Below are positions 1 through 9,174 of a stretch of DNA of 64,000 nt, piece after piece (the stretch's first letter is position 1; each line of letters starts with the position of its first letter). The notes beneath the pieces are model-generated. The model was not told the DNA's origin, did no database searches, and was given only the letters and a program-made list of their open reading frames with translations. The stretch spans positions 600,191-664,190 of the forward strand of contig NZ_LR130844.1 of assembly GCF_900626155.1 (NCBI RefSeq), written 5' to 3'. Made by a program: the position numbers and the translations under genes. The stretch comes from Anaerococcus vaginimassiliensis. GTDB taxonomy: Bacteria > Bacillota > Clostridia > Tissierellales > Peptoniphilaceae.

Positions 1-589
1 TTTTTTGCTCTTTTTCTTCGATGCTTGTTAGAATAGCTGCTCTTTGTTTGAGGATATCGTACTTTTCTTTTAACAAGCCAGATACCTTGTTCAAGTCATC
101 ACTAGAAAGAAGACCACCTGCGATTCTTACCATGTTTAAATAGTTTTCTTCGATTTCACGACGTTTAAACATAGCCTTCTCATTTAGTTCAGCTCTCTTC
201 TCATCAGTATCAGCCTCATCTAGATTTTTATAAATATCATTTAGTTCATCAAGCTCTGTGTGATACTTTGGAAACTGACTTGGGATTTTCTTTATCATAT
301 CGAGCATGTAGGCTGGAGCCATATCCTCGATTGTCTTTCCATAATAAAGAGTTGTTCCTTCTGTTTGATCGTATATTTGTAGGAGAGTTCTACCAAAGGT
401 TGATTTACCACAACCAGATTCTCCTACAAGTCCTAGAGTTTCACCTTGGTATATATCCAAAGTTATAGATTCGTTAGCGTGAACGTATTCTCCTGGGCCC
501 TTGTCAAAGAAGGATTTTTTCTTAAGAGGGAAATATTTTTTTAAGTTTCTTATTTTAAATAAGACTTTTTTCTCATCGTTAGTTTGCAT
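1..589 (-). CDS. oppF: Oligopeptide ABC transporter ATPase OppF (partial)
   Basis: This is the N-terminal 196 residues of the second ATPase of a peptide importer; the rest runs off the window. It starts at the ATG whose first base is 589 and overlaps the end of oppD by 11 bases. Walker A (GESGCGKST) is at residues 56-64. In normal OppF proteins the Q-loop (IFQDP) follows about 40-50 residues after Walker A. Here the sequence from about residue 100 to the window edge is instead a charged helical stretch (KYHTELDELNDIY..., then KEKYDILKQRAAIL). This looks like a large insertion between Walker A and the Q-loop. Family assignment rests on Walker A and on being the last gene of oppBCDF. Confidence 0.88.
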   Translation of the reverse strand, partial: MQTNDEKKVLFKIRNLKKYFPLKKKSFFDKGPGEYVHANESITLDIYQGETLGLVGESGCGKSTFGRTLLQIYDQTEGTTLYYGKTIEDMAPAYMLDMIKKIPSQFPKYHTELDELNDIYKNLDEADTDEKRAELNEKAMFKRREIEENYLNMVRIAGGLLSSDDLNKVSGLLKEKYDILKQRAAILTSIEEKEQK

Positions 590-1580
590 TTTCTTCCCTC
601 TCCTTTCTATTTGGATAATGGCATCTGATCTTTTGGTTCTCATTTACAGAAACAAGATCAGGCATTTCTTCTATACATTTTTTGGTAGCAAACTTACACC
701 TATCAGCAAACTTACATCCTTTTGGCAAGTTTAGTGGGTGTGGTACGCTTCCTGGTATTATATCTAATCTCTCATTCCTATCTGATGTTATAGATGGAAT
801 TGAATTTAGTAGTGCAACAGTATATGGGTGGTTATAATCTGTTATATCGTGTTTAAAGATAAACTCTACTGGAGATTGCTCTACGATTTGCCCACAATAC
901 ATTACAGCTACTTCATCTGCCATTTGATTTATAACTCCTAAATCGTGAGTTATAAATAAGATTGAAGTTCCAGCTTTTTCCTTTAGATCATTCATTAACC
1001 TAAGTATTTGGGCTTGGATTGTAACATCTAGGGCGGTTGTTGGCTCGTCAGCTATAAGAAGTTTTGGTTCGCAAGCAAGAGCCATGGCAATCATAACCCT
1101 TTGGTTCATACCACCAGATAACTCAAATGGATATTGTTTAGCCACAACATGTGGGTTTGGGATTTTAACTGAAGCAAGAAGTTCCTCACATCTTTGGGCA
1201 GCTTCTTTTTTGTTCATTCCCCTATGAAGCATCAAAACTTCTGATATTTGTTTTTCGACTGTAAATACAGGGTTTAGAGAGCTCATTGGCTCTTGGAATA
1301 TCATAGAGATAGCATTTCCTCTGATATGTTCCATTTGACTAGTTTTATATTCTGATATTTTTTCTCCATCAAATATAATCTCACCGTCATAAATTCTTTG
1401 GTTAGATTCAAATAGTTGAAGGATACTCATAGCAGTTTGACTCTTTCCAGATCCACTTTCTCCAACAAGACCCAAGGTCTTTCCAGCATCGACTGTAAAT
1501 GATACGTCATTTACAGCCTTTATAAGACCACGTCTTGTTTCAAAGTAGGTGTGGAGATTTTTTATTTCTAATAAGCTCAT
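579..1580 (-). CDS. oppD: Oligopeptide ABC transporter ATPase OppD
   Basis: This is one of the two cytoplasmic ATPases that power peptide import through OppB/OppC. The 333 residues include Walker A (GESGSGKSQT), the Q-loop (IFQEPMSSLNPV), the signature LSGGMNQRV and Walker B (LLIADEPTTALD). They end with the C-terminal oligopeptide/dipeptide transporter domain, with a cysteine-rich stretch (CKFADRCKFATKKC) typical of OppD. Length is normal for the family. It lies 8 bases after oppC and overlaps oppF, so the four genes are co-transcribed. Unlike oppC and oppF it shows no obvious insertion. Confidence 0.95.
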   Translation of the reverse strand: MSLLEIKNLHTYFETRRGLIKAVNDVSFTVDAGKTLGLVGESGSGKSQTAMSILQLFESNQRIYDGEIIFDGEKISEYKTSQMEHIRGNAISMIFQEPMSSLNPVFTVEKQISEVLMLHRGMNKKEAAQRCEELLASVKIPNPHVVAKQYPFELSGGMNQRVMIAMALACEPKLLIADEPTTALDVTIQAQILRLMNDLKEKAGTSILFITHDLGVINQMADEVAVMYCGQIVEQSPVEFIFKHDITDYNHPYTVALLNSIPSITSDRNERLDIIPGSVPHPLNLPKGCKFADRCKFATKKCIEEMPDLVSVNENQKIRCHYPNRKEREENAN

Positions 1581-1588
1581 AATTTCAC

Positions 1589-3556
1589 CTATCTCTCATT
1601 TGCTCTTGGGTCGATGGCATCTCTTAGGGCGTCACCGATTAGGTTTACAGAAAATGATGTTAAGAATACTGCAAGTGCTGGGAATACCCATCTCCACCAG
1701 TAAGTATTTAATACGTCTGATGATTGAGCTGCAGTTAACATATTACCCCAAGAAGGAGTTGGTTCTTGTACACCAAAACCTAGGAAGGATAAACCTGATT
1801 CTGTTAGTAGGTTTCCTGCGTATCCTATAGTTGCATTTACTATTACTATTGAAAGAATATTTGGGAAGATGTGTTTGATCATAATAGACCAATCCTTAAC
1901 TCCCAAAGCTCTAGCTGCTGTTATATAGTCACGTTCTCTTTCTGCTAGGATTTGTCCACGAACAAGACGGGCAAGACCAGTCCATCCGAGTAGTCCTAGA
2001 AGGATCATAACCATTGTTATCCTTTGTTCCTGGCTTGCTCCTGGTGGGAGTAGAGCTGATAGAGAAATTAGCATTGGATAGAATGGGAATGATGCCACTA
2101 TCTCTGAAAATCTCATAAGTACATTGTCTAATTTTCCACCGACAAAACCTGATACCATACCTATAACAACACCCAAAACTATTTGGATAATAGTTGAAAT
2201 TAGGGAAATAACCATAGTCATCTTTCCACCATGGATAAGTCTTGTAAATATATCACGTCCTTGGTCATCTGAACCAAACCTAAATCCATTTAGTCCCCAA
2301 GTGTGAACCTTACCTTCTTTATCAACTGCATAGTTGTTAAAGTAAGAAGAATAAATTTGATCGAATTCTCCTTCTGGAGTTTCTAGCTCACCGTAGTTAT
2401 CAATACCCCATTGGTACATCTTGCCTTTTTCATCTAAAGCTGTAAGAACTGATCCACTAGCTTTTATATCAACCAAAGGACTTTCAAACTCAGGAATGTT
2501 ATCTCCAGTTAGTTTGTCTCTAGCTGGACCCCAAACATAAAGTTTGCCATCTTCAGCTATAACAGCTGCTGTAGAGTTTGTTAGGGCAACCTTCTTAGCC
2601 TTTACTTTTCCTGTCTTAAGTTCTTCTGGCATTTGAGTATCTAGTTCTGATCCCATAACTCCAAGAAGTCTAACAGATCCATTGTCCATCAAAGCTAACA
2701 TATTGATTGGATTTGTAGCAAAGTCTACAACCTTACCTTGGATATCTGATGGAAGAAGGTTTAGCCTACTTGCTAGAGTTGAACCCCAAACAATTAGGTT
2801 ATGTTTTTTTGTAAGGACTGCAGAATATTGAACACCTGCACCTAGTTTTTCTATTCCTTCTTCTTTTATTTTTGATTCATCCATTGGTGGGGCTTGGTTT
2901 TGTTGGAATGATTTATTACCCCAACCGTATATTTCATTATCTTCAGTTGCAAAAATTATATGTCTATCACCTGCTGCTATATCGGTTACTTTTTTGTTTT
3001 CAAGAGCTTCCTTAGCTTTTTCAGGTATCTCTAGAACCTTATCTTCATTATCTGATCCCCAGACATAAACATTTCCTTCTTTTGTTAATCCTGCTGAGAA
3101 AGTATTTCCTATAACAATTTTCTCAACACCTTCTTTTTCAAGATCAGAAGGATAATTCATATAAGCTCCACCTGGAGCAACGTTAGTTAAGTTTCCTTGG
3201 GAATAGTATTGGTTAAACGGAAGAAGCTTGCTTCCAACAAACACTACAAGAACAATAGCTACAAAAAGCACAAGTCCTATAACTCCTAGTGGGTTTCTAA
3301 AGTAGTTTCTAACAGCTACCTTTCCTGGAGACATAATCGCTTCTTCTTTTAGCTTGTCATTCTCATCTTCTTTTCTAGGTCCATTGTCTACATTTTTATT
3401 TTCAGAGTGGATTAGCTCATCCTCTCCCTTGTTATCATAAGGTGTATTAGGTTTTTCACTAAAATCTTCACCCTTAGAAAAGGTAAAGGCTCTTAGAAAC
3501 AAGTCTTTCAAAAAGCTTCCATATGATTTAAAAGATTTCTTAAAAGTTCTATTCAT
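1589..3556 (-). CDS. oppC: OppC permease with inserted RCC1-like beta-propeller
   Basis: This inner-membrane permease of the oligopeptide importer is 655 residues long; OppC is usually about 300. Residues 1-85 are a charged cytoplasmic N-tail and 89-108 are TM1 (OppC_N-like). Residues about 143-424 form seven spaced RCC1-type repeats ending VYVWG (163), IYGWG (209), LIVWG (254), VRLLG (295), LYVWG (339), MYQWG (380) and VHTWG (417). The ordinary OppC core resumes at FGSDDQGRD (427-435) with the remaining membrane segments and the EAA loop (AARALGVKDWSIMIKHIFPN). The propeller therefore sits in the extracytoplasmic loop after TM1. The reading frame is open throughout, so this is a true fusion and not an assembly join. 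Confidence 0.93.
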   Translation of the reverse strand: MNRTFKKSFKSYGSFLKDLFLRAFTFSKGEDFSEKPNTPYDNKGEDELIHSENKNVDNGPRKEDENDKLKEEAIMSPGKVAVRNYFRNPLGVIGLVLFVAIVLVVFVGSKLLPFNQYYSQGNLTNVAPGGAYMNYPSDLEKEGVEKIVIGNTFSAGLTKEGNVYVWGSDNEDKVLEIPEKAKEALENKKVTDIAAGDRHIIFATEDNEIYGWGNKSFQQNQAPPMDESKIKEEGIEKLGAGVQYSAVLTKKHNLIVWGSTLASRLNLLPSDIQGKVVDFATNPINMLALMDNGSVRLLGVMGSELDTQMPEELKTGKVKAKKVALTNSTAAVIAEDGKLYVWGPARDKLTGDNIPEFESPLVDIKASGSVLTALDEKGKMYQWGIDNYGELETPEGEFDQIYSSYFNNYAVDKEGKVHTWGLNGFRFGSDDQGRDIFTRLIHGGKMTMVISLISTIIQIVLGVVIGMVSGFVGGKLDNVLMRFSEIVASFPFYPMLISLSALLPPGASQEQRITMVMILLGLLGWTGLARLVRGQILAERERDYITAARALGVKDWSIMIKHIFPNILSIVIVNATIGYAGNLLTESGLSFLGFGVQEPTPSWGNMLTAAQSSDVLNTYWWRWVFPALAVFLTSFSVNLIGDALRDAIDPRANER

Positions 3557-3557
3557 C

Positions 3558-4520
3558 TTAGGCCTCCAATTGAACTCTTGGATCTACAAGAGCATAGCCT
3601 ACATCCATTATCAAGTTTCCAAGAAGAGTAAGCACTGCATAAAACATTGATAAAGCAAGGATTACATTGTAATCTTGGGCCATAACAGCCATAATCAATT
3701 CATTACCAATTCCTCTAAATGAGAAAATCCTCTCTGTAATAGCTGATCCTGAAAACATTCCAAGTACAGCCCAAGTTAAGGCAGTAACTACTGGAATAAG
3801 AGCATTTCTAAAGGCGTGAGAATAAACTATTGTCTTCTCCTTTAGTCCCTTACTTCTTGCAGTTCTAATATAATCTTGGTCTAAGGCATCTAGCATTGAG
3901 TTTCTAACATATCTTGACAAGGATGCTAATGATCCAATAGTTAGAGTTGCCGTTGGAAGAACTAAGTATTTCACCCATTCTCCAAAGGTGTTTTCTCTTG
4001 GCATACCGTTTGCTGGAAGCCATTTTAATCTAAATGCAAATATAAATATTAATATAAGTCCTATGAAAAATACTGGAATAGATAAACCAACTAGGGTGAG
4101 AGTCTGACTTATCTTATCAAACGCCCCTCCCTTGTGCGTGGCACTCCTTATTCCTATAAGCACCGAAAGCACAAATGATAAAATTATAGAACCTATATTT
4201 AAAAATATAGTGTTTTTTAACGGTTCAGCCAAATACTCAGAAACAGGTCTTCTAACTCTGATAGATTCACCCAAATCTCCCTTGAGAGTTCTACCTAGCC
4301 ATCTAACATATTGTTCTGGAAGTGACTTATCGAGTCCATATCTTTGTTGAAGAGTCTTGTATAGATCTTCTTGTTCTTGCTTAGTCATACGAGTGTTTTG
4401 TGGCATCATCGCCTTAATCGGATCACCTGGCATCGCTTTTGAAAAAGCAAAAAGCATAATAGATATAATCAGAGCAACGGGTATTAAATTTATAATTCTC
4501 TTAACTATATAACGAAACAT
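3558..4520 (-). CDS. oppB: Oligopeptide ABC transporter permease OppB
   Basis: This is the first permease of the peptide importer, 320 residues, standard length. It has the N-terminal OppB signature (MFRYIVKRIINLIPV), six predicted membrane segments and the EAA motif region (RTARSKGLKEKTIVYSHAFRNALIPV) that docks onto the ATPases. The minus-strand sequence AGGAAGG lies before the ATG. It ends one base before oppC. It is the promoter-proximal gene of oppBCDF, with its own promoter at about 4639-4667, downstream of the oppA terminator. Confidence 0.95.
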   Translation of the reverse strand: MFRYIVKRIINLIPVALIISIMLFAFSKAMPGDPIKAMMPQNTRMTKQEQEDLYKTLQQRYGLDKSLPEQYVRWLGRTLKGDLGESIRVRRPVSEYLAEPLKNTIFLNIGSIILSFVLSVLIGIRSATHKGGAFDKISQTLTLVGLSIPVFFIGLILIFIFAFRLKWLPANGMPRENTFGEWVKYLVLPTATLTIGSLASLSRYVRNSMLDALDQDYIRTARSKGLKEKTIVYSHAFRNALIPVVTALTWAVLGMFSGSAITERIFSFRGIGNELIMAVMAQDYNVILALSMFYAVLTLLGNLIMDVGYALVDPRVQLEA

Positions 4521-4851: not shown

Positions 4852-7032
4852 TTATTTTTCTAAAGTAATAGCGTTAATTTGGTATTCTGATGGCCATACT
4901 GGTGTATTTATATCAAAACCTTTAACTCTCTTTGTATAACCTGTGTGATATTGGTTAGCATATAGTGGAATTTCTGGTAGATAATCATTGTACCAAAGTT
5001 CGAATTCTTCCCAATTATCTAGGTATTCTTCTTTCTTGTCTGGAGCTGTTCTACGTAGCTTAACTGTGATTTCATCTGCCTTAGGATCATTTGTCCTTGT
5101 CTTGTTGTCAGATCCTTCAGAGTGATATTGATACCATGGATCAAATGGTGTACCAAAGCCTGTTCCCATGTTGAAGGCTGTATATTCTGGATCTTCTTCT
5201 GGGAATGTGTAGTAGTTTAGAAGTGTTGAGAATGAACCTGCTGTTACGTTATATTCCATACCAACTTGTTTAGCGTTGTTTGGAACTTGGTTAGAAATTA
5301 ATGTTGTAATTGGAGATTCATCAGAACCGTATTGGTTTACTACAAGTTTCTTGCCATTTTCATCGTATCTATAGTAGTCAAATCCATCTGGGTTAGATGA
5401 GAACATTTCATCAGCTTTAGCCTTATCCCATGGAGTTGTACCATCAGATTCAAATTTGAATGGAGTTTTATCTAATAGTTCGTTAGCTTGCTCAAGGTTC
5501 ATTTGATAGTTAACTAGCTTACCTTCTAGGTCTGCTCCTCTTTCTTTGTACATCCATTGGCTTGTACCATACATACCGTTTGTTACAACACCGTAACCAC
5601 CAGCATATGATTGAACGAAGCTGTTTCTGTCCATCAAGTGAGCTATAGCTTGTCTAACTTCTTTATATTTTGTTGTTCCTCTATCTGTTAAGAAGGTCAC
5701 GTTTCCATAACCATTTCTTTCATAAGTGTTAAATCCACCTATTGTTCCCTTATCAGCAGCTTCTCTTATTCTATCTATTGCACCACCGTCAGCTTCTTCT
5801 TCCCAAATGTCGATATCGCCGTTTTCTAGTAAGTCTACTGCGATCTTTTGGTTTACTACTTGAAGGATAACATGTGGAATTGTAGCTTTTTCGCCTTTGA
5901 AGTTTCCAGCATAGTTTTCATTTAAGCTTAATTTAACCATGTTATTTGAGTAAGAATCAAACTTATAAGGACCTGATACTACTGATGGGTTAACTCTGTA
6001 TTCGTTAACTTCTTTAAGCATAGCTTCGTCGATTAATTGTTGAGTTGGATCTACATCTCCTTCTTTACGAGCTTCAAGATCTGCAATTGCTGCTTCATTT
6101 TCTTTTTTAGTTTCTTCGTATTCAGCCTTATCTTCTTCTGTTGCATCAGCTTCTGGAGCTGGATAGTTTTCTTCAAAATCTGCTTTTTGTTTTTCAATTT
6201 GTTTATCAAGACCTTCAGTATAAGCTTTTTTATCTTCTTCTGTTGGAGTGTATCCGTCTTTTGCAACTAGCTTGTTACCTTCTTTTGATACAGCCAAGTT
6301 TTCACTTAGGGCATGCATTGGAAGTGGAGCTTGGGCAAGAAGCGATGCTTCTTCATAATATGGAAGGAATGATGCGTCAATTGTTACTTTAAATGTTAAA
6401 TCATCAACCTTTTCAAGTCCTTCAAATACATCAGATTCACCTTTCTTGTAAGCCTCGTATCCTTTAGCAGAATCATGACCTATAGTTGTTGATCCTGTAA
6501 GCTTTGAGTATTCTGGGTGAGTGTGTAGGAGTGATCCGAATAAATAGTCATCTGCTGTTACAGGTTCACCATCAGACCATTTTAGACCGTCTTTTAGTTT
6601 GAAAGTAACTGTTTTTGATCCATCTGCATTTTCTTCAGATTTTGGATCTTCTGCAAGGATAGTTTTGTTATTTACCCACTCGCCGCCTTCATCCTGAACT
6701 ACAGTTTGGTAACCGTTGTTTCCTTCGATACCCATGTATCTTCTTACCTTAACGTCTCCTGCGTTGTTAGTCCATCCACCTAGGAAGTCACCATTTAGCT
6801 CGCCAAGACCTACTACTAGAGTATCATCAGCTGTTTGTGATTCGAAATCTTCTGCAGATTGGTCTTCACCTTCTGTGCCTTCTGCTGCTTCGCCTTCTGT
6901 TTTATCTTCAGTTTTTGTATCAGCGTCTTTGTTATCAGTTTTGTTGTCTTTATTTTCTCCACCACCACAAGCAACTAGTGTACTTGCAAGACCTAGAGCC
7001 ATTAATGAAGAAAAAACTCTTTTCATTTTCAT
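4852..7032 (-). CDS. oppA: Oligopeptide-binding lipoprotein OppA
   Basis: This extracellular solute-binding lipoprotein (SBP_bac_5 family) delivers peptides to OppBC. The signal peptide ends in a lipobox STLVAC with Cys22, followed by an acidic linker to about residue 65. The SBP_bac_5 core includes TVTFKLKDGLKWSDGEPVTADDYLFG. At 726 residues it is longer than the usual 540-600. Much of the excess is residues 262-327, a charged, Glu/Lys-rich stretch predicted to be coiled-coil (DKQIEKQKADFEENYPAP and onward). The ATG at 7032 is preceded by AGGGGG; the in-frame ATG at 7026 is an alternative. It has its own promoter and terminator. Confidence 0.95.
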   Translation of the reverse strand: MKMKRVFSSLMALGLASTLVACGGGENKDNKTDNKDADTKTEDKTEGEAAEGTEGEDQSAEDFESQTADDTLVVGLGELNGDFLGGWTNNAGDVKVRRYMGIEGNNGYQTVVQDEGGEWVNNKTILAEDPKSEENADGSKTVTFKLKDGLKWSDGEPVTADDYLFGSLLHTHPEYSKLTGSTTIGHDSAKGYEAYKKGESDVFEGLEKVDDLTFKVTIDASFLPYYEEASLLAQAPLPMHALSENLAVSKEGNKLVAKDGYTPTEEDKKAYTEGLDKQIEKQKADFEENYPAPEADATEEDKAEYEETKKENEAAIADLEARKEGDVDPTQQLIDEAMLKEVNEYRVNPSVVSGPYKFDSYSNNMVKLSLNENYAGNFKGEKATIPHVILQVVNQKIAVDLLENGDIDIWEEEADGGAIDRIREAADKGTIGGFNTYERNGYGNVTFLTDRGTTKYKEVRQAIAHLMDRNSFVQSYAGGYGVVTNGMYGTSQWMYKERGADLEGKLVNYQMNLEQANELLDKTPFKFESDGTTPWDKAKADEMFSSNPDGFDYYRYDENGKKLVVNQYGSDESPITTLISNQVPNNAKQVGMEYNVTAGSFSTLLNYYTFPEEDPEYTAFNMGTGFGTPFDPWYQYHSEGSDNKTRTNDPKADEITVKLRRTAPDKKEEYLDNWEEFELWYNDYLPEIPLYANQYHTGYTKRVKGFDINTPVWPSEYQINAITLEK

Positions 7033-7355: not shown

Positions 7356-9143
7356 TTATTTTCTATTTTCATATAAATAACTGTTGCTTGCACCAACTAA
7401 TCTATAGTATCTAACTGGAAGTCCTCTTCCATCTCCCATTCTTCCTTTTCTAGGTGTGATAGATACTCCATCAGCGCTGTAATTCATGTGAATTATGGTG
7501 TCATTTTTTCTATTTAAGATAAAACCTGTATGACCATCTGCTCCTAGAGATCCTCCTGGATATCCTGCAACAAAGATATCTCCATATCTAATCTCAGATT
7601 CATCTATTTCATACATTACCTTACCCTTTGCACCCATTTGAAATAGGGTTTCAGTGCTTCCTGGCCATGTTCCTTTATCTAAGAAACCACCATACATCAA
7701 GGCTCTAAACACAGCAGAAGAACAATCTGCATACTCATCAGATACTCTCTCTTTCCAGTGCATGCTATAGTTTAGCCCTGCTCTTCTTGCAGCAAACATC
7801 CATTCTATAGTTTTGTCTATACTCTTATCTCCCTTGATATTGTTATCAACCGGAGTTGCAACTCCTCTATGATCTACTCTATACTCAACTCCACCTTGAG
7901 TTACAGTTGTATTTCTTTTTATTCCATTTGAGTCAAAATAATAGTTTGTTCCGTTTATATTCCATACACCTTCTTGAATATATCCATTTTCGTTGGTGTG
8001 GTAGCTCCTGTTTTCGTAAGTAACCCATTCGTTTTTAGGGCTAGTTGCTACTCCTCTGTAGTCACTTTTTAGGAATTTCCCTCTATATTTGATGATGTTG
8101 TTAGTTGTAAGTTTTCCATTATCTGCAAATATGTAGGTATAATTGTCTATATTTCTAACACCTGTTACAAGTTTCCCATCATTTCCTGTTCTATAAGTTG
8201 TTCCATCTATAGCAAACCAGAAATTGGATGGATTTGTAATTCTTCCCTTGCTATCTGTTAGGTAGAATTTATTTTCCTTGATTTCTTTCTTGTTAGTTTG
8301 AAGAATTCCTCTATCGTCAAATCTATAGTAGGAGCCGTCTATTTGTCTTAGTCCCTTGTAGAAGTTACCATTTGCATCAGTTCTATATCTGTTGTTTTGG
8401 ATATTTACCCAAGTGTTTACCTTTTTATTTAAGACTCCCTTGCTGTCACTTTCATAATAAGTGTTATCTATAAGGATTTTCTTGTTCTTTTGAAGAACTC
8501 CTTTATTGTCAAAATAGTAGTTCTTGCCTTCGATCGTGCTAAATCCTTTTGTGTAGTATCCGTTATTGTTTTTGTAGTAGGTATTTGATCCAGAAGTTTG
8601 CCAAGTAAGCTTGTTGTTATTTTCATTAGCTTTCTTTTCATCTTCTCTATTCTTTTTATCTTTTCTGTATTCTCTTACTATAGCATCCAAATCAGAACTA
8701 TCGTAGTTAACTACAGGCTTGTTTGCGGTAGCTCTTTTTGCTCTTCTTGGGGCAGAATAAAGATTTACAGTTCTTACTTCTTCTATTTCTTTTACAGGCA
8801 CTTCAGTTTTAACTTCTTCTTTCGCTGGATTTTCTTCTGTATTTTCTATATTTTCTGTATCGCCTGTATTATCTACAGAATTTTCTTCTGCTGGAAGATT
8901 TTCATCTTCACTACCGCTCTCATTTTCTAAAGATGTAGATTCTTCCTCATTTTGTAGTTTTCTTTCATCATTTGTCTCTATTGAAGAATCTTCTAAACTT
9001 TCTATATCTTTAGAATCACTTGCTTGTTCATTTTTTAAATCAACATTATTTTCTTCGTCTGCATAGGCGTTAGTATTTCCTATAAGTGTTGAAGCTACAA
9101 ACAAGGTTGATGCGAGCAAGATAGTTTTGTTTACCTTTTTCAT
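7356..9143 (-). CDS. Secreted peptidoglycan amidase with cell-wall-binding repeats
   Basis: A secreted wall hydrolase of about 595 residues. The signal peptide (KKVNKTILLASTLFVASTLIG) ends near NAYA-DEE, followed by an acidic low-complexity linker. A long array of roughly 20-residue glucan/choline-binding-type repeats follows (for example NNGYYTKGFSTIEGKNYYFD and DGSYYRFDDRGILQ). The last 150 residues resemble the Amidase_5 / NlpC-P60 fold: YADCSSAVF gives the likely catalytic Cys, GADGHTGFIL the His, and IIHMNY the third site. The ATG at 9143 has AGAGGTAAGG immediately before it; an in-frame TTG at 9158 is a poorer start. WalR-like sites lie upstream. The exact bond cleaved cannot be told from sequence. 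Confidence 0.88.
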   Translation of the reverse strand: MKKVNKTILLASTLFVASTLIGNTNAYADEENNVDLKNEQASDSKDIESLEDSSIETNDERKLQNEEESTSLENESGSEDENLPAEENSVDNTGDTENIENTEENPAKEEVKTEVPVKEIEEVRTVNLYSAPRRAKRATANKPVVNYDSSDLDAIVREYRKDKKNREDEKKANENNNKLTWQTSGSNTYYKNNNGYYTKGFSTIEGKNYYFDNKGVLQKNKKILIDNTYYESDSKGVLNKKVNTWVNIQNNRYRTDANGNFYKGLRQIDGSYYRFDDRGILQTNKKEIKENKFYLTDSKGRITNPSNFWFAIDGTTYRTGNDGKLVTGVRNIDNYTYIFADNGKLTTNNIIKYRGKFLKSDYRGVATSPKNEWVTYENRSYHTNENGYIQEGVWNINGTNYYFDSNGIKRNTTVTQGGVEYRVDHRGVATPVDNNIKGDKSIDKTIEWMFAARRAGLNYSMHWKERVSDEYADCSSAVFRALMYGGFLDKGTWPGSTETLFQMGAKGKVMYEIDESEIRYGDIFVAGYPGGSLGADGHTGFILNRKNDTIIHMNYSADGVSITPRKGRMGDGRGLPVRYYRLVGASNSYLYENRK

Positions 9144-9174
9144 CCTTACCTCTTTCAAAAATTAGTTATTTTTA

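Follow-up and report, generated by a model that had tools for sequence, protein, structure and literature searches.

Many Gram-positive bacteria take up peptides and peptide signals through oligopeptide permease (Opp) importers, in which the way the binding protein reaches and loads the permease is still under study. The closest described relatives of the protein analysed here are the OppC and DppC subunits of E. coli (8z21, 8z1w, 8z1x) and M. tuberculosis (8j5q), which share with it the OppC_N and BPD_transp_1 domains, a GTDxxGRD re-entry and an operon with oppA, oppB, oppD and oppF. The E. coli chains have 278-282 residues in total and align over nearly their whole length, i.e. there is no folded domain in the loop between TM1 and TM2. 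In pneumococcus, according to the available part of PMC11192437, the AmiD loop linking TM1 and TM2 (residues 64-99) is modelled by AlphaFold against Lobe 2 of the binding protein, and for the large extracellular domains of AmiC (ECD1, ECD2), also seen in AlphaFold models, a role as a clamp on the loaded binding protein is suggested. Among propellers, BLIP-II is described in the accessible sections of PMC6121496 and PMC9218822 as a secreted protein binder of high affinity, and in the latter BLIP-II and RCC1 propellers form one group, mostly bacterial in the data set of that study.

The window, i.e. the whole stretch of 64,000 nucleotides from Anaerococcus vaginimassiliensis, encodes a 655-aa oligopeptide permease subunit OppC with a propeller insert (1589..3556, reverse strand, as are all features of the window given below), identified from the open reading frames, Pfam, AlphaFold2 and superposition. 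OppC_N, which contains TM1, covers residues 76-120 (3197..3331; PF12911, 35.1 bits, cut-off 23.9), and the permease core BPD_transp_1 covers residues 462-652 (1601..2173; 112.9 bits, cut-off 26.4). The re-entry motif FGSDDQGRD is read from the translation at residues 427-435 (2252..2278), and G428, D430, G433, R434 and D435 are invariant in 48 aligned rows. The insert itself spans about residues 130-423 (2288..3169, with limits set by eye against 11 plain OppC loops); it is bordered by N-V-A-P-G and by G-F-R-F-G-S-D-D-Q-G-R-D. All of the 11 plain loops compared have only a short P-S-x5-G-T-D at this position, as the original prediction had expected of OppC. Thus, an otherwise ordinary OppC loop has taken in a propeller of about 295 residues.

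Residues 144-421 of the insert (2294..3127) are predicted to form a seven-bladed propeller of the RCC1/BLIP-II type. The Pfam models RCC1_2 (98.3 bits, cut-off 22) and RCC1 (28.4 bits, cut-off 21.7) both match above their cut-offs, while the whole-propeller model WD40_RLD reaches 119.8 bits, below its cut-off of 150. RCC1 proper acts in nucleotide exchange on Ran, a eukaryotic protein. The repeats end in [VILMF]xx[WL]G at residues 167, 213, 258, 299, 343, 384 and 421, a spacing of 46, 45, 41, 44, 41 and 37, and there is one extra off-register match at 239. Shuffling the stretch 10,000 times gave 0.86 such matches on average and never more than 5, compared with the 8 seen here. In the AlphaFold2 model of the single chain, 21 strands lie within residues 144-421, i.e. 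seven blades with three strands each as in BLIP-II, and the block means of pLDDT are 84 to 94. The original prediction of seven RCC1-type repeats at residues 143-424, spaced by 37-46 and situated between TM1 and the re-entry of a genuine OppC, therefore agrees with the domain matches, the repeat ends and the model.

TM1 and the core are intact on either side of the insert in the AlphaFold2 model and superpose jointly on E. coli OppC, with 277 residues aligned over model residues 74-650. Compared with the E. coli OppC and DppC chains, the rmsd is 2.1-2.3 over 277-281 residues, and the core has the fold of the solved proteins. From this superposition the loop is placed on the outer side by homology, and the propeller would face the outside of the cell, as originally predicted. 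The best NCBIfam match of the core is Opp4C (NF045476), but since its score of 307.3 bits is below the cut-off of 350, the protein is not filed as Opp4C; two relatives, L085 and L094, score 304.2 and 306.6 bits.

The operon also holds oppA, oppB, oppD and oppF. OppB (3558..4520; BPD_transp_1_N 1-81, BPD_transp_1 120-316) has 320 aa and no large extracellular domain, i.e. it lacks the large insert seen in AmiC (498 aa), which we take to be an OppB-type subunit. OppA (4852..7032) is a 726-aa solute-binding protein of the SBP_bac_5 family with a lipobox-like LVACG near its N terminus, noted by eye. Also by eye, the Anaerococcus OppA has a highly charged, probably helical stretch within the binding protein, which appears shorter or absent in some other propeller operons, e.g. 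L074 and L085. OppD (579..1580) is a 333-aa ATPase without an insert, and the N-terminal part of oppF lies at 1..643, where the gene leaves the window. A wall hydrolase with Amidase_5 and choline-binding-type repeats according to Pfam (7356-9158) adjoins oppA. A search of the window with Rfam, at gathering scores, found no RNA elements. In the two other Opp-type operons of the same genome, OppC has 290 and 272 aa and no insert. A recent copy of an RCC1 protein from the own genome was considered as the source of the propeller and is not supported, as the sole match to the insert profile at 1e-15 or better is OppC itself.

A second insert, partly outside the window and not part of the original prediction, is found in OppF between Walker A and the Q-loop. 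The whole frame (L133 3164-4834) has 557 aa in the genome, although the true start may be 18 codons later, and the first part of the insert is at 1..337 of the window, an approximate limit taken from the model of the A. tetradius protein. In this model (39 sequences, mean pLDDT 88.1) the insert consists of four helices at 115-147, 151-184, 188-222 and 226-265, with a break at 236 in the last one and pLDDT block means of 83-98. Of the 328 residues of E. coli OppF, 325 superpose on the model, and the insert has no match among them. Profile searches of the insert against solved structures matched ATPases only over the last ~25 positions and coiled coils weakly; the fold searches used the whole OppF model, and the ATPase dominated their results. 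In propeller operons OppF has 432-617 aa, compared with 262-393 in others, and the distance from Walker A to the Q-loop is 165-255 residues against 49-55. In the own genome it is 226 in the propeller operon and 53 and 49 in the two other Opp-type operons.

The distribution of the propeller was examined in 101 genomes, the own genome and 100 relatives. Among the matches listed, a full-length or nearly full-length propeller OppC with an open frame is present in all 31 genomes of the genus Anaerococcus, in 5 of 30 from other genera of the family and in 4 of 40 from other families of the order, while the other 25 and 36 have no full-length match. In the class sample, drawn evenly, the insert profile matches 32 of 291 genomes at 1e-15; 13 of these were taken to be propeller OppCs, namely 11 full-length matches with 1.5e-62 or better and two split matches that were checked (G114 and G316), and the remaining 19 are weaker. 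Similarly, the evenly drawn phylum sample gave 27 matches in 398 genomes at 1e-18, comprising 14 full-length propeller OppCs at 1.6e-84 or better and 13 weaker matches. The two samples overlap, with G000 and G063 among the common bearers. The propeller OppC is thus a minority form outside Anaerococcus. Viral relatives amount to 2 weak loci with 24 and 29 percent identity.

A scan for named loci found 276 candidate stretches and confirmed 122, a lower bound as a single pattern near blade 7 was used; 80 of the 122 were taken on. They come from Anaerococcus, Neofamilia, Peptoniphilaceae, Erysipelotrichaceae, Longicatena, Hungatella, Lachnospiraceae, Oscillospiraceae and others, although many are metagenome-assembled and some assignments are unsure, and the sources include cultured strains as well as gut samples of several animals. 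A host ligand for the propeller, which the original prediction had listed beside the receptor and wall material, is neither favoured nor disfavoured by these sources. The motif test identified 78 of the 80, which have 4 to 6 WG ends before the re-entry. The two that it missed, L077 and L078, each encode an OppC of 627 aa within the operon and were classed as RCC1 from their sequence; L077 is also present in the OppC core tree. RCC1_2 and BPD_transp_1 are found in 48 of 48 members and OppC_N in 47 (scan at E 0.001), and the insert has 289-300 residues in those 9 rows, out of 14, that could be measured by script. The order oppA-B-C-D-F is complete in 69 of the 80 loci, counting partial frames, and 10 loci, at contig ends, are without one or more opp genes. 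Chance or an artefact can be set aside as an origin of the propeller, given that shuffled sequences reach at most 5 repeat ends instead of 8, the frame is open throughout the genus and the propeller lies within OppC in 80 of 80 loci.

Several loci deviate from this picture. L153 and L154, found without the blade-7 pattern, encode longer OppCs that diverge from the blade 7 consensus. By eye, blades 2 and 3 of the 696-aa propeller OppC of L154 (5943-8030) are joined by a long acidic linker, and GTDGNGAD replaces GTDxxGRD. The genome of Anaerococcus sp. 9403502, which has L058, contains another propeller OppC at L068; the order there is oppB, oppC, oppA, and the stretch fetched contains no insert-bearing oppF. 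A second full-length oppA is found upstream of the operon in L052, L054, L055, L057, L058 and L125, so one permease may serve two receptors. L048 (OppC 504 aa, OppB 469 aa) was rejected as a loop insert; its OppC_N is at 229-280 and it therefore carries an N-terminal extension.

The two inserts occur together. In total, 104 OppCs were classed: 83 with the propeller, 18 plain and 3 with another insert, while L128, L048 and L150 were dropped because the motif was missed. Among the 99 with a scored OppF from the same locus, the OppF insert is present in 78 of 78 propeller operons and in 0 of 21 others; the plain OppCs are a chosen set, made up of the best plain matches among relatives, both paralogs of the own genome and L097, a neighbouring operon. 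No score was obtained for five propeller OppCs, which either have no usable OppF in the stretch or are second copies within a locus, and the dropped loci are consistent, as L128 has the OppF insert and L048 and L150 do not. In the class sample 13 genomes have the propeller, 14 the OppF insert and 13 both; the exception is G200, whose 3.7-kb contig ends near oppF. In the phylum sample the numbers are 14, 14 and 13. Here, G718 has only the propeller on a contig that stops before oppD, and L156 (G560) has only the OppF insert, with oppD and the insert-bearing oppF amid unrelated genes and no adjoining oppA, oppB or oppC. The Fisher values for the pairing, 1e-21 and 2e-22, assume independent genomes, an assumption that does not hold.

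The trees are quick ones in which the own paralogs form long branches of unsure place: in that of the OppC core (after the GSD motif, 67 rows), all 46 propeller OppCs included, out of 83, are on one side of a branch with an SH-aLRT of 100, and in that of the OppF core (insert removed, 59 rows), all 36 insert-bearing rows included are on one side with an SH-aLRT of 98. Both trees fit a single origin; most likely, each insertion originated once and the pair has been retained. For the seven parts compared, distances increase jointly (r 0.89-0.97 in 69 operons), which fits descent as a unit. The three OppCs with another insert, L045, L046 and L047, belong to the same order, form a separate branch of the core tree and have a different insert of ~280 residues together with an ordinary OppF. 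In L046, the one scanned of the three, OppC_N (54-96) and BPD_transp_1 (416-609) flank an insert without a Pfam domain. This suggests that the outer loop of OppC took up domains at least twice, once the propeller and once, in three genomes, an unrelated insert.

We suggest, with a probability of roughly 45%, that the operon represents a distinct OppABCDF subtype with two co-inherited inserts, in which the propeller is a docking platform for OppA and the OppF arm serves the transporter from the inside. The two insertions, their positions, predicted folds and joint occurrence are established; the outer location, by homology to solved OppC, the contact with OppA and the role of the arm are what we infer. 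The propeller would hold peptide-loaded OppA, or one of several OppAs, atop OppBC, contacting the lobe already touched by the ordinary OppC loop, and would thereby speed or select the hand-over from the receptor. The OppF arm would probably bind a cytosolic partner or steady the nucleotide-binding domains. Docking is favoured because a propeller on this loop would sit beside or under OppA. The AmiD loop at Lobe 2 and the AmiC clamp of pneumococcus, in the available part of PMC11192437, support it, as does the protein-binding of BLIP-II. In addition, OppA is longer in propeller operons (597-800 aa, short contig-end frames excluded) than in the 14 plain operons showing an oppA (547-635 aa), and propeller and OppA diverge in step (r 0.96, 69 operons). 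The intact TM1 and core around the insert, its position at the short stretch of plain OppC loops, the small OppB and the shared five-gene order were likewise counted in favour of this reading.

After regressing out OppB, the OppC core, OppD and the OppF core, the partial correlation between propeller and OppA is 0.51. However, two pairs with the OppF insert give 0.40 and 0.43 and, as this cytoplasmic insert is unable to touch OppA, the value for the propeller may reflect shared fast evolution. The propeller is also more variable than the core (mean entropy 1.82 vs 1.07 bits), so a single fixed contact is not evident. The loop that follows the first strand is conserved for blades 7, 1, 2 and 3 (0.96-1.37 bits), whereas blades 4-6 vary there (1.91-2.48); the conservation of blade 7 is inflated by the pattern with which the 80 loci were found. 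Several fixed positions look, in our judgement, like RCC1 consensus residues and, given this and the search bias for blade 7, conservation was set aside as a pointer to a binding face. That most relatives in the family and order lack the propeller was also counted against the docking reading.

It is possible, though unlikely, that the propeller is itself a capture domain for peptides, muropeptides or wall polymers and raises their concentration near OppA. Propeller folds serve for binding in general, this one has an outer position and loops that vary between members, and the wall hydrolase with choline-binding-type repeats adjoins oppA; however, no ligand pocket was identified and uptake needs no second binding domain. 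We hold it similarly doubtful that the inserts act as a regulatory pair: the propeller would sense OppA or hold it, and the arm of OppF would gate ATP hydrolysis or bind a regulator in the cytosol, so that transport is coupled across the membrane to a signal. The strict pairing within operons, repeated in 13 genomes of each sample, agrees with such a pair, as does the position of the confidently modelled four-helix insert just ahead of the Q-loop. The Q-loop connects the nucleotide-binding domain with the permease in ABC proteins. However, as both trees fit one origin, the pairing may be one event kept by descent, and G560 has oppD and the insert-bearing oppF with no oppC adjoining. Taken further, the two inserts would be a transmembrane regulatory module, undescribed for ABC importers, making this a gated or signalling importer in the Bacillota that bear it. 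The propeller would then report the occupancy of receptor or ligand and the arm before the Q-loop would gate ATP use or recruit a partner, which we consider quite improbable. A passive spacer or shield, giving protease protection or wall spacing with no specific partner, would explain why the inter-blade loops vary strongly and why L154 can accommodate its acidic linker, but the fold is kept in divergent members, as seen from their WG ends, RCC1_2 matches and insert lengths, and this is very unlikely. Finally, a tethered BLIP-II-like inhibitor or decoy for beta-lactamase or penicillin-binding proteins is scarcely credible, since the best structural match has low identity, a common fold shows no function and the propeller is within OppC in all 80 named loci.

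The original prediction also held that such proteins may be recorded in databases without comment, and indeed the form recurs in many genomes while neither a propeller in OppC nor a coiled-coil insertion in OppF is accounted for in the open-access literature searched, a search with most subscription papers and all bioRxiv preprints outside it. The compact propeller in a permease makes the receptor-loading step directly testable, and the OppF insert is a second handle on the ATPase side as well as a sequence marker of the subtype. Compared with known systems, the best structural match of the propeller is BLIP-II (1jtd, 3qhy, 3qi0), with 24 percent identity over the aligned part; however, BLIP-II is a free secreted inhibitor, while the propeller is part of a permease. 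E. coli OppF (8z21_D) has no counterpart of the helical insert between Walker A and the Q-loop. The OppCs of L045, L046 and L047 have an insert of like size in the same loop, but an ordinary OppF and another branch of the core tree. The likeness to AmiC is that of large extracellular domains on an Opp permease (PMC11192437, available part). However, the extra domains of AmiC are, in that part, not named as propellers, and as OppB is short here, the extra outer domain lies on the other permease subunit, OppC.
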